A stretch of 64,000 nucleotides of DNA. Origin: Fulvivirga lutea (lineage in GTDB: Bacteria > Bacteroidota > Bacteroidia > Cytophagales > Cyclobacteriaceae). How positions within the stretch are numbered: the stretch's first letter is position 1; each line of letters begins with the position of its first letter. The stretch spans positions 3,019,488 to 3,083,487 of the forward strand of contig NZ_CP070608.1 of the NCBI RefSeq assembly GCF_017068455.1. The letters are read 5' to 3'. Of the stretch, positions 25,011 through 50,783 are shown one piece after another. The notes below the pieces were generated by a model, which worked only from the letters and a program-made list of their open reading frames with translations, had not been told where the DNA came from and made no database searches. The translations under genes and the position numbers were made by a program.

Positions 25011-26654
25011 TTAGATAGTACGTCCTGTGTTAATCACATTCACACCATCAAATCGGGTAGTTGAACTACCATGAGATACAGCACTTACCTGAGAAGGCTG
25101 CCCTTTACCATCAAAGAAAGAACCCATTAATCGGTAATCATCTTTATCACAAATTTTAGAACATGAATTCCAGAATTCCTGTGTATTTGACTGATAGGCT
25201 ACATCATTTAACTGATTCGTGATTTTACCATCTTTTATTTCAAAGAAGGCTGTACCACCAAACTGGAAGTTATAACGCTGCTGATCGATTGAATAAGAAC
25301 CTCTACCGGCAATGTAAATACCTTTCTCCACATCACTCACCATATCATCAACAGAATACTTCTCTTTACCTGATTCTAAAGAAACATTTGGCATTCTCTG
25401 GAACTGTACATCATTCCAGCTTTGTGAGTAGCAGCAACCATGAGACTCATTCTGGTCAATCATGTGAACCTGATCTCTAATAGCCTGATAATTTACCAAA
25501 ATACCATCTCTTACCAAATCCCATTTCTTACACTCCACTCCTTCGTCATCATACCCAACTGCACCTAATGAACCTACTTGTGTTTTGTCTGCTACAAGGT
25601 TTACTAGCTTACTTCCGTAGTTAAAGTCTCCAGACTTCCACTTGTCCAATGTGGCGAAACTGGTTCCTGCATAATTGGCTTCATAACCAAGTACCCTATC
25701 CAGCTCTAGTGGGTGGCCAACAGATTCATGTATTGTTAAACCTAAATGGTTAGGCTCTAATACAAGATCATATTTACCAGGATCAACTGACTTAGCTGTT
25801 AGCATTTCTTTTGCCTGAACGGCTGAAGCGATAGCATCTTCCACTATATCGTAGCTATTTCTATAGAGATTTAAACCTGTGCCTTGCGGGCCGGGAATTT
25901 TCTCTGAGTCCAAGCCATCCATGTACTCATAACCCATTCCCATTGGAGCGCTTAGTCCCTGACGAGATTTAAACTTGCCGTCACCAATAGCAGTTACGTT
26001 CATATATGGCCAAATTCTATGCACATCCTGATCGATGTACGACCCGTCAGTAGAAGCAAAATACTTTTGCTCATTTACCAAAAATAAGGCGGTTGTTACG
26101 TAGCTGGCGCCATTTTCCATGGCAGCAGCATTCGCTTTTAAAAGCAAATCAACTTTCTCAGAAACTGGCACATCTTTAAAGTCTTTTTTAATTGGAGTTT
26201 TCCATGAAACCTCACCATGCCCTTTTACAGGAGCCAATTCTACGGGCTCAGTCTGAATTTTAGAGTTTGCCTTCGCTATTGCTATTGCCTGATTGGTAGC
26301 TTTTTTAATGCCATCAGGAGATACATCATTTGTAGATGCAAATCCCCAGGTACCATTCGCAATTACCCGAATACCAATTCCAAATGATTCTGTATTTACC
26401 ACATTCTGAACTTTATCTTCACGGGTAAACACATATTGATTTAAGTATCGACCGATACGGGCATCGGCATACGTAGCTCCTAATGACTTGGCCGTGTTGA
26501 GAGCAACATCAGACATCATTTTTTTGGTAGCTATATCCATTCCAGGCTCCAATAGTGCTTCAGCAGATATCGACTTTCCCATTAATGCACTGGGAATCAT
26601 CATCGCACCTGCAGCTCCTAATCCGGCTAGCTGGACAAAATCTCTTCTTTTCAA
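25011..26654 (-). CDS. tldD: TldD-family metalloprotease with Tat signal (TTG start)
   Basis: 547 residues. The active-site motif HESVGH (309-314) is intact; together with a downstream Cys-rich segment (HGCCYSQSW) it matches the metal-dependent TldD peptidase. The N-terminus KRRDFVQLAGLGAAGAM is a twin-arginine export signal, so the enzyme is predicted to act outside the cytoplasm. The start is TTG at 26654, chosen because it gives the complete Tat signal, no in-frame ATG fits, and a strong Shine-Dalgarno (26659-26666) sits 4 nt before it. It forms an operon with the TldE gene, whose product has no signal. Confidence 0.9.
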   Translation of the reverse strand: MKRRDFVQLAGLGAAGAMMIPSALMGKSISAEALLEPGMDIATKKMMSDVALNTAKSLGATYADARIGRYLNQYVFTREDKVQNVVNTESFGIGIRVIANGTWGFASTNDVSPDGIKKATNQAIAIAKANSKIQTEPVELAPVKGHGEVSWKTPIKKDFKDVPVSEKVDLLLKANAAAMENGASYVTTALFLVNEQKYFASTDGSYIDQDVHRIWPYMNVTAIGDGKFKSRQGLSAPMGMGYEYMDGLDSEKIPGPQGTGLNLYRNSYDIVEDAIASAVQAKEMLTAKSVDPGKYDLVLEPNHLGLTIHESVGHPLELDRVLGYEANYAGTSFATLDKWKSGDFNYGSKLVNLVADKTQVGSLGAVGYDDEGVECKKWDLVRDGILVNYQAIRDQVHMIDQNESHGCCYSQSWNDVQFQRMPNVSLESGKEKYSVDDMVSDVEKGIYIAGRGSYSIDQQRYNFQFGGTAFFEIKDGKITNQLNDVAYQSNTQEFWNSCSKICDKDDYRLMGSFFDGKGQPSQVSAVSHGSSTTRFDGVNVINTGRTI

Positions 26655-26658
26655 GTTT

Positions 26659-26666
26659 CCTCCTTT
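26659..26666 (-). promoter_or_regulatory. Strong Shine-Dalgarno before the TTG start of tldD
   Basis: AAAGGAGG on the minus strand, followed by AAAC and then TTG. Strong sites like this are rare in Bacteroidota and absent before nearly all other genes in this window; it fixes the TTG start. Confidence 0.7.
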
Positions 26667-47501: not shown

Positions 47502-47849
47502 TTATTTGCTTACTTTCTTTACAATTGCTTCGAAAGCCTCTGGATGATTCATTGCTAAGTCAGCTAGTACCTTTCTGTTTAGATCGATATTAGCTTTCTT
47601 TAAATTACCCATTAATTGAGAATAAGACATTCCGTGCATTCTAGCTCCAGCATTAATACGCTGAATCCATAATTTTCTAAAATCTCTTTTCTTAGCTTTT
47701 CTATCGCGGTAAGCGTAAGTCCAACCTTTTTCGACAGCGTTTTTAGCTACTGTCCATACATTACTTCTTCTTCCCCAATAACCTTTAGCGGCTTTAAGGA
47801 TTCTTTTTCTTCTAGCTTTTGAAGCTACGTGATTAACTGATCTTGGCAT
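47502..47849 (-). CDS. rplT: 50S ribosomal protein L20
   Basis: 115 residues, highly basic: [28 protein letters not shown] at the N-terminus, and the C-terminal globular part with [32 protein letters not shown]. Binds 23S rRNA early in 50S assembly. It is the last gene of the thrS-infC-rpmI-rplT order known from many bacteria. The 102-nt gap to rpmI (47850-47951) could hold a regulatory structure, since L20 represses this operon in other bacteria, but I see no distinct fold. Confidence 0.97.
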
Positions 47850-47951: not shown

Positions 47952-48146
47952 CTAGATGTTTAACTGTTCTTTGATACTCTTTTCATCTGACTTATGAACT
48001 AATGTCATATGGGTCAGATTTCTTTTCTGCTTTGTTTCTTTTTTAGTCAAGATATGGCTCTTAAAAGCGTGCTTACGCTTTATCTTGCCAGTACCTGTAA
48101 GCTTGAATCTCTTCTTCGCTCCTGACTTAGTTTTAACTTTTGGCAT
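47952..48146 (-). CDS. rpmI: 50S ribosomal protein L35
   Basis: 64 residues, typical L35: [30 protein letters not shown], then [14 protein letters not shown]. Very basic. It follows infC with a 28-nt gap and precedes rplT. No Shine-Dalgarno is seen before its ATG, in contrast to infC. Confidence 0.96.
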
Positions 48147-48174: not shown

Positions 48175-48735
48175 TTATTTCTTTTTAGCCGGTTTAGGCG
48201 CTACGAACATAATCATTCGTTTACCTTCCAACTTAGGTAGTTGTTCTACCTTACCATAGTCTTCAAGCGCTTGAGCAAATTTTAATAATAAGATTTCTCC
48301 ACGCTCTTTAAAAACAATGGTTCTTCCTACGAAGTGAACATAAGCTTTAACCTTAGATCCTTCTTTTAGAAAGTTAATCGCATGGTTTAATTTAAAATTA
48401 AAGTCATGCTCCTCGGTGTTAGGCCCAAAACGGATTTCTTTGATTACCGTTTTTTGAGCTTTCGCCTTTATCTCTTTCTGTTTTTTCTTTTGTTCGTACT
48501 TGAACTTTGAGTAATCAATGATTTTACAAACCGGAGGATCTGCCTTTGGTGATATTTCCACTAAGTCTAGATTCTGTTGCTTAGCCAGTTCTAGTGCTTT
48601 ACTTATGGGATATACATCTACCTTAACATTTTCACCAACAACCCTCACATTGCGAGCAGTTATAAGTTCATTAACTCTATAGGGCTCTTCTACTCTCCCT
48701 CGAGGCCCTCTTCTCTGAAATCTTTGTTTACTAAT
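48175..48735 (-). CDS. infC: Translation initiation factor IF-3 (ATT start)
   Basis: 186 residues if read from ATT at 48735. The N-domain includes [52 protein letters not shown], followed by the C-domain [28 protein letters not shown] and [13 protein letters not shown] later GTG (48648) would remove 29 residues that are plainly conserved. The ATT has AAAGGAGG 5 nt before it. This rare start is used by infC in many bacteria, where IF-3 discriminates against non-AUG starts and so represses its own synthesis. Position between thrS and rpmI fits the usual operon. Confidence 0.95.
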
Positions 48736-48740
48736 TGTTA

Positions 48741-48748
48741 CCTCCTTT
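48741..48748 (-). promoter_or_regulatory. infC: Strong Shine-Dalgarno before the ATT start of infC
   Basis: AAAGGAGG on the minus strand, 5 nt before ATT. It defines the infC start and is much stronger than any site before ATG genes in this window. Confidence 0.85.
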
Positions 48749-48848
48749 AGTTTACCTTGAAAAAACAGTTTGCAAATATCAACATATATTTTCGTTAATC
48801 AAAAAGTATAAAATCTTTTTAAATATTGATCAACAGTTGATTTATCGA

Positions 48849-50783
48849 TTAAATTGAGACATTTTTTTCAAAATGTCCAATGAACTCTTCAATACTCATA
48901 CTTCCTAAGTCCCCCTCTCCATGTCGTCTAACAGAAATTTCTCTATTAGCTTCTTCCTTCTCCCCTACAATCAGCATGAAAGGTACTTTTTTAACTTCAG
49001 CATCACGTATCTTTCTACCAATCTTTTCATCTCTACTATCCAAGAATCCTCTAATATCTTTTTCATTGAGCAAAGTCTTCAATTCCTCCGCATAGGTATG
49101 ATACTTTTCAGATATAGGTAGTATAGCAATTTGATCTGGCGCAAGCCATAGTGGAAAATTACCGGCACAATGTTCAATTAGCACAGCCACAAATCGTTCC
49201 ATAGAACCAAATGGTGCACGGTGAATCATTACCGGCCTGTGCTTTTGATTATCAGAGCCTGTATATTCTAATTCAAATCGCTCAGGTAAAGTATAATCCA
49301 CCTGTATAGTTCCCAATTGCCAACTTCTACCCAAAGCATCTTTCACCATAAAATCCAGTTTAGGGCCATAAAATGCAGCTTCACCTTCAACAGAAACTGT
49401 AATTAGGCCGCGCTCATCGGCTGCTTCCTGTATCTCTCTCTCAGCACGATCCCACAACTCATCTTTACCTATATATTTAGCTTTATTATTTTGATCACGC
49501 AATGAAACCTGAGCGGTGTAGTTTTCAAACCCTAGTGCTTTGAAAGTGTACAACACAAGGTCTATTACTTTGACAAACTCGTTCTTAACCTGATCTGGCC
49601 TGCAAAATATGTGGGCATCATCTTGAGTAAAACCTCTTACTCTTGTTAGGCCGTGCAACTCACCACTTTGCTCATAACGATAAACCGTTCCAAACTCTGC
49701 AAGTCTTACTGGCAGATCTTTATACGACCTTGGTTTTGAATTATATATTTCACAATGGTGAGGGCAGTTCATTGGTTTTAACAAGAACTCCTCATCTTCA
49801 TTCGGTGTCTTTATTGGCTGAAATGAATCAGCACCGTATTTTTCATAGTGCCCTGAAGTTACGTACAGCTGCTTGGAACCAATATGCGGTGTAACTACCG
49901 GATCATAGCCTGCTTTTACCTGGGCTTTACGCATAAAGTTCTCAAGCCTCTCTCGAAGAATTGTTCCTTTAGGTAACCATAGAGGCAGACCCATGCCCAC
50001 CTTCTCAGAGAAAGTGAATAGTTCTAATTCTTTACCAAGCTTTCTATGATCTCTTTTTTTAGCTTCTTCTAACCTTTCCAAGTATTCAGAAAGCTCCTTT
50101 TGCTTAGGAAATGTGATGCCATAGATACGTGTTAGCTGCTTTCTGGTCTCATCTCCGCGCCAGTAGGCACCTGCAACACTCATTAACTTTATTGCTTTTA
50201 TCAGCCCTGTATGAGGTATATGCGGCCCACGGCACAAATCTGTAAAATTACCTTGCTGATAAAATGTAATTGTTCCATCTTCCAAGTCATTGATGAGCTC
50301 TATTTTGTACTCATCGCCCTTATCTTTGAAGTATTTAAGTGCATCAGATTTTGAAATTTCACTTCTGGAAAATTCATTCTTATTGCGTGCAAGTTCGGTC
50401 ATCTTCTTTTCAACAGCCGCTAGCTCTTCATCGCCAAAATCAAGATCACCTAAATCCACATCATAATAAAATCCGTTTTCAATGGGTGGGCCAATTCCAA
50501 ATTTTACCCCAGGATATAATTCTTCTAACGCCTCTGCTAAAACGTGAGCAGAAGAATGCCAAAACGTTGACTTACCTTCCTGATCATTCCAGGTTAAGAG
50601 TTGTACTGTAGCATCTTCATTTATAGGCCTTGAAGAATCCCACACTTCTCCATTCACTTTCGCAGATAATACATTTCTGGCGAGGCCTTCACTAATGCTC
50701 ATGGCCACATCATGGCTGGTAACCCCTTTATTAAACTCTTTAATTGTCCCGTCAGGGAGAGTGATTTTAATCATTCCGCTCAT
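48849..50783 (-). CDS. thrS: Threonyl-tRNA synthetase
   Basis: 644 residues, full length. Domains in order: TGS (1-65), editing domain with HSSAH (His76, His80) and later CRGPHIPH, class II catalytic core with [12 protein letters not shown] (zinc Cys), [15 protein letters not shown], and [20 protein letters not shown], and an anticodon-binding domain ending in the C-terminal part. Charges tRNA-Thr and removes misattached Ser. It starts 1 nt after the TPR lipoprotein stop, so it may also be expressed from the DUF5686 promoter. No leader or T-box is visible. Confidence 0.97.

Follow-up and report, generated by a model that had tools for sequence, protein, structure and literature searches.

The infC locus of Fulvivirga lutea raises the question of which codon begins the gene for translation initiation factor 3 (IF3) and what part a Shine-Dalgarno (SD) sequence plays in the choice, in a class of bacteria, the Bacteroidia, where the anti-SD is reported to be hidden by the hold of bS21, bS18 and bS6 on the 16S rRNA tail (PMC9976891, the part of the text available). 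NCBI places Fulvivirga in the Cytophagales, Fulvivirgaceae, and the closest named infC relatives, among the best 80 of 596 loci, are themselves Fulvivirga (94% and 90% identity). In the window, by which we mean the whole stretch of 64,000 nucleotides that was analyzed, the gene order on the minus strand is thrS-infC-rpmI-rplT (Table 1).

Table 1. Features of the infC locus and its neighborhood, in window coordinates.
Feature	Positions	Strand	Remarks
infC, translation initiation factor IF3	48175..48735	minus	186 codons plus stop; open frame from 48735 (ATT) to 48175 (stop)
SD, AAAGGAGG	48741..48748	minus	9-base match counting the next T
Spacer, TAACA	48736..48740	minus	5 nt from SD core to ATT
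AUU start codon of infC (ATT)	48733..48735	minus	Basis: sequence, conservation
First in-frame GTG of infC	48646..48648	minus	29 codons past ATT; residue 30
thrS, upstream gene	48849..50783	minus	
rpmI (L35), downstream gene	47952..48146	minus	
rplT (L20), downstream gene	47502..47849	minus	
GATATTTGC, conserved motif of a putative promoter	48772..48780	minus	36 nt before AUU

The arrangement from which the original prediction set out, AAAGGAGG-TAACA-ATT at 48748-48733 on the minus strand with the first in-frame GTG 29 codons further on, is confirmed. The product is IF3: the Pfam domains IF3_N and IF3_C both score above their cut-offs, IF3_N from residue 21 (profile position 1) and IF3_C from residue 97, and alignments with the best of the solved full-length IF3 chains begin at residue 9, 18 or 19 of the infC product. 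The claim that IF3 residues lie ahead of the GTG is borne out by these domain limits and by the substitution pattern in the genus. Across the 13 of 15 genus loci that are of equal length (the two of differing length were omitted), codons 2-29 show 0.579 differences per synonymous and 0.154 per non-synonymous site, with a ratio of about 0.155, and the same codons read one base off frame give 0.199 and 0.251 (ratio 1.3); the seven codons upstream of ATT, meant as a control, give 0.481 and 0.172, and their ratio of 0.254, in a stretch that contains the SD, is not clearly apart from 0.155. Judged by these ratios, codons 2-29 evolve as protein.

Relatives within the genus bear on the start codon directly. 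An in-frame stop lies 4-7 codons ahead of ATT in 13 of 14 relatives; in the remaining one (L013) the frame is open to a TTG 20 codons upstream that has no SD. Between ATT and the conserved RVN anchor, the sole in-frame canonical codon is a GTG at -5, within RVEEPY, found in 4 of the 15 loci, and the infC of the window has none in frame from the upstream stop to the anchor. Because every one of the 15 loci (the window counted in) retains the ATT together with GGAGGT or a longer SD, and a start at the GTG would cut IF3_N, the proposed AUU start appears close to forced. In frame, canonical start codons begin with the GTG at 48648, the point at which callers limited to ATG/GTG/TTG would, by arithmetic, begin the gene 29 codons late, as had been foreseen; yet it lacks an SD, the codons ahead of it evolve as protein, and it encodes residue 30, inside a domain that begins at residue 21. 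On this last ground it is ruled out as the infC start, and we regard initiation there as extremely improbable.

Both the predicted strength of the SD and the predicted scarcity of SDs in this genome hold up. Against a generic class anti-SD (an 11-base tail), the infC SD pairs at -13.4 kcal/mol; the anti-SD was taken from the tails of class relatives and may differ from the host's own 16S tail, which was not found in the genome with two sequence patterns and RF00177, a search that may have missed the stretch. RF00177 found no 16S in any of the 10 genomes of the order that were tried (this genome and nine others), whereas it did in 7 of 10 genomes from other orders. On both strands of the genome, a single contig of 4.14 Mb, AAAGGAGGT shows no excess, with 26 + 29 = 55 copies against 32 + 31 = 63 for its mirrored control, so that, with seven spacings allowed, about 5 codons in 100,000 would have a copy ahead of them by chance (55 / 8.28 million x 7). 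Among 52 largely non-overlapping window ORFs of at least 120 codons, two carry, among their first 30 codons, a canonical codon preceded at 4-10 nt by an SD 6-mer (none in a mock window 25 nt upstream), and one of these SDs, at codon 14, is probably internal.

When the ORF context of all 55 AAAGGAGGT sites is read, the only two that look like gene starts are infC and an FMN_bind-domain gene, which we take to be nqrC, with a GTG start (L282 201-218, genome C1:1774961). AAAGGAGG occurs 3-7 nt before ATG, GTG or TTG 45 times in the genome, against 30 for its mirror; the sites resembling gene starts are L323, L324, L327 and L360 (ATG), L338 (GTG, the same nqrC-like gene) and L351 (TTG, a tldD-like gene of the window), and L352, L362, L363 and L364 are uncertain. 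Gene names at these sites, FMN_bind excepted, are our own assignments. infC is a member of a small set of SD genes and not the sole SD gene of the genome. The notion that SDs here accompany only weak starts is contradicted by the four gene-like sites with ATG behind AAAGGAGG. The tldD-like gene of the window, at 25011-26654 on the minus strand and presumably of the tldD/pmbA type, has its TTG behind AAAGGAGG at spacing 4 (26652-26666); the Tat-like MKRRDF at the head of its protein makes the TTG the probable true start, and the gene is probably a second case of an SD with a non-AUG start in the window.

We consider it likely that a single explanation covers start codon, SD and regulation. Translation of infC would begin with the AUU at 48735. 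Lying 5 nt ahead of it, the 9-base SD would pair with the 16S tail and hold the 30S subunit on the weak AUU; and IF3, which rejects initiator tRNA unless the codon is AUG, GUG or UUG, would when in excess lower its own synthesis. The pairing of ribosomes with the infC SD and, by analogy with E. coli, the repression by IF3 of its own mRNA through AUU are the two inferred parts of this explanation, and the concealment of the anti-SD reported for the class (PMC9976891) counts against the former.

To place the locus in its class we assembled 150 loci and 80 named loci (the best 80 of 596), 230 in all; 7 of the named loci were duplicates, which leaves 223 distinct ones. Of 149 genomes, 143 have infC; each genus is represented by about one locus, and of the 58 genomes in one initial set G036, G040 and G056 are not included. 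Canonical candidates were ATG, GTG or TTG at or before -9, nine codons ahead of the anchor; AUU, AUC and AUA are written AUH, and loci with no canonical codon in that stretch (125 of 223) are termed forced AUH. A distant IF3 also occurs in viral contigs (L170).

In these 223 loci an SD 6-mer stands 4-10 nt before 80 of 332 AUH codons versus 1 of 115 canonical codons; it also precedes 128 of 4104 other codons, many of them neighbors of a supported AUH. Counted by locus, 79 have AUH with an SD (56 forced, 23 with a canonical codon in the same stretch), 69 are forced AUH without an SD 6-mer, 74 have a canonical codon without an SD, and one, Olivibacter, has an SD before TTG; an AUH codon is present in all 69 forced loci without an SD. 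SDs occur in 24 of 98 loci with a canonical codon versus 56 of 125 without (Fisher p = 0.002, uncorrected for descent). Of 95 leaders with an SD 6-mer, 79 point to AUH (12.0 expected), one to a canonical codon only (3.6 expected) and 15 to neither, the last counting against a role for the SD. GGAGG is present in 74 of the 79 AUH-with-SD loci, spacing is 5 in 48 of 80 SD-to-start pairs, and mean pairing is -11.9 versus -1.05 in a mock window; the pairing signal is absent in 65 single-canonical loci and in 20 single-candidate AUH loci without an SD. Across the class, predicted SDs stand before AUU, AUC or AUA and hardly ever before canonical infC starts.

Shared ancestry limits how far this association can be read. 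On well supported branches of the protein tree there are five independent pairs differing in AUH, in which the SD differs the same way in about two, the opposite way in none (in most draws) and not at all in about three, so descent may explain much of the tie between AUH and SD; the AUH call rested on the SD itself in 23 of the 79 loci, so that the tree labels are partly set by the SD. The 69 of 125 forced-AUH loci without an SD 6-mer mean that AUH does not require an SD, and the proposition that AUH always needs one is ruled out by them. The suggested need of a weak AUU for an SD therefore survives as a preference of SDs for AUH over canonical codons, and fails as a rule.

That SDs avoid canonical infC starts fits compensation for a weak codon, but more than half of the forced-AUH loci lack an SD. 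Taken alone, such compensation would make the SD a plain remedy for AUU without autoregulation by IF3. Stronger SDs have been reported generally with the weaker GUG and UUG starts (PMC5622118, in the portion available), and canonical infC starts in the class go without an SD; this reading nevertheless leaves unexplained why AUH is retained throughout the class and elsewhere in the phylum, though one base change gives AUG, and we think it distinctly unlikely. Outside the class, in one locus per family from 20 of 21 families, 12 of 20 families lack a canonical codon at or before codon -7; in most of those 12, AUU or AUC stands at the expected place, some with GGAG-type sequences (by eye). The most widely kept element is the AUH start, and the SD is one of several supports for it. 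AUH would be kept most widely because IF3 must be able to reject it, an expectation drawn from E. coli and S. aureus.

Lineages differ in how the start is supported. Near the window the predicted conservation of ATT and SD extends beyond the genus: AUH with an SD is found in 25 of 38 own-family loci (4 forced AUH without, 9 canonical without an SD) and, in the 150-locus set, in 32 of 57 own-order loci (10 forced AUH without, 15 with a canonical codon available and no SD). The corresponding counts are 33, 24 and 36 of 93 loci in the other orders of the class (150-locus set) and 14, 35 and 23 of the 73 named distinct loci, which also include the SD before TTG. Hymenobacter has ATA with an SD in 6 of 6 loci (merely AAAGGA in L176) and Pontibacter in 2 of 2; Bacteroidaceae (3 of 3) and Prevotella (1 of 1) have ATG without an SD, and Mucilaginibacter has TTG without one (3 of 3).

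Twenty-seven loci (within L196-L248), which we assign to the Flavobacteriaceae by title or genus name, all keep ATAGCA and none has an SD; 26 are forced AUH, and L234 has ATG at -9. With these 27 loci, and with the 69 forced-AUH loci above, the claim that the phylum keeps an SD-dependent start is not borne out as worded. The codon before ATAGCA varies (GTC 13, GCC 10, ACC 3, GTT 1), A-13 and A-12 are present in all 27, and at -3 there is G in 24 loci and A in the other 3. By its sequences this group appears to initiate at AUA without an SD. In F. johnsoniae, A-12/A-13 and A-3/A-6 are reported to be determinants of initiation (PMC8710568, in the part available); the predicted AUA start has the A-motif, mostly not A-3, and shared descent limits what that shows. 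The lack of an SD on these infC genes agrees with the report that rpsU is typically the single SD gene of a Flavobacteriales genome (PMC9976891, in part).

rpsU suggests another use for the infC SD. It is said to be autoregulated through its SD by ribosomes lacking bS21 (PMC9976891, as excerpted), and the infC SD could likewise act mainly as a bS21 sensor, with the AUU start unchanged: 30S subunits with a tail free of bS21, bS18 and bS6 would read it, tying infC to the supply of bS21 besides or instead of IF3. The genome's own rpsU does have a strong SD (GGGAGGTGG before ATG, L032 1474-1493, -18.6 kcal/mol with the generic tail), and its bS21 has tyrosine 54, the position changed in PMC9976891. 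An extended SD of 9 to 13 pairs, about -14 to -21 kcal/mol, is given there as characteristic of rpsU, however, and the infC SD has 9 matching bases and the energy stated above, calculated with the generic 11-base tail and a program other than that of PMC9976891; moreover, the Flavobacteriaceae, where the effect was shown, lack an SD on infC. We hold this reading to be unlikely, if worth entertaining. Somewhat less likely still is a broader proposal, in which the few conserved SDs of the SD-poor Bacteroidia would form a private channel for 30S-platform factors (bS21, bS18 as reported, and now IF3): infC would be read mainly by bS21-free 16S tails, IF3 synthesis would respond to an excess of IF3 by way of AUH and also to a shortage of bS21 by way of the SD, and the Flavobacteriaceae would have dropped the SD input and would start at AUA with the help of A-12/A-13.

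Altered anti-SDs offer little comparison. The alternative UCUCA is confirmed by 16S in G078 (L103, L161) and G348 (L162, L166, L168, L169), both of one family; in the infC of G078 (L103) the start is forced AUH and no SD is seen, so there is nothing to covary with UCUCA, and the infC of G348 lies outside the comparison. The alternative pattern matches 20 of 395 class genomes (10 for the mirrored control), and four matches, L153-L156, have no 16S context.

Upstream of infC, 29 of the 32 loci compared (31 from the own family and one from the own order) have [GC]ATATTTGC, 27-60 nt before the start where measured. We take it to resemble the Bacteroidota -7 promoter element, and its conservation suggests a putative promoter between thrS and infC. 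In the window, Rfam elements give no match at gathering score, and RNA folding at the infC start is unremarkable (z = 0.60).

With these results infC can be counted among the conserved SD genes of a class in which ribosomes reportedly hide the anti-SD, and the class forms a natural series for non-AUG start choice: AUU, AUC or AUA with an SD, AUA without one, and AUG, UUG or GUG without one. Screens for SDs that rely on annotated starts could miss genes like infC; some true SDs are reported to have been missed through wrong annotated 5' ends of ribosomal proteins (PMC9976891, available part). Genes preferring non-AUG starts are the subject of a 2020 preprint cited in PMC9845219 (seen in part). 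The word infC does not occur in the main texts of PMC9976891, PMC8710568 and PMC6847099. Among the matches listed in a literature search over titles and abstract openings, none concerns an AUH start or SD of Bacteroidota infC.

The closest parallel is E. coli infC, reportedly described by Butler et al. in 1986 and 1987 as having an AUU start and being autoregulated by IF3. The two loci share the thrS-infC-rpmI-rplT order and the AUU start of the IF3 gene, whereas E. coli uses SDs widely and its autoregulation is shown, here inferred. The infC of S. aureus, with an AUA start and a predicted extended SD, likewise joins AUH to a strong SD, and IF3 self-repression is proposed there too; extended SDs are, however, reported as the rule in S. 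aureus (PMC13009471, in part), whereas SDs are rare here. Streptomyces sigR, whose GTC start is repressed by IF3, resembles infC in that IF3 acts through a non-canonical start, but it is another gene in another phylum and was tested experimentally (PMC5472188, portion available). rpsU of the Flavobacteriales is another translation gene that keeps a strong SD where the class mostly lacks them (PMC9976891, in part), although the rpsU of the present genome has ATG and a stronger SD than infC. An AUH-start infC is thus already known from E. coli and S. aureus, and the variant found here is a conserved SD on an AUH start in an SD-poor phylum.
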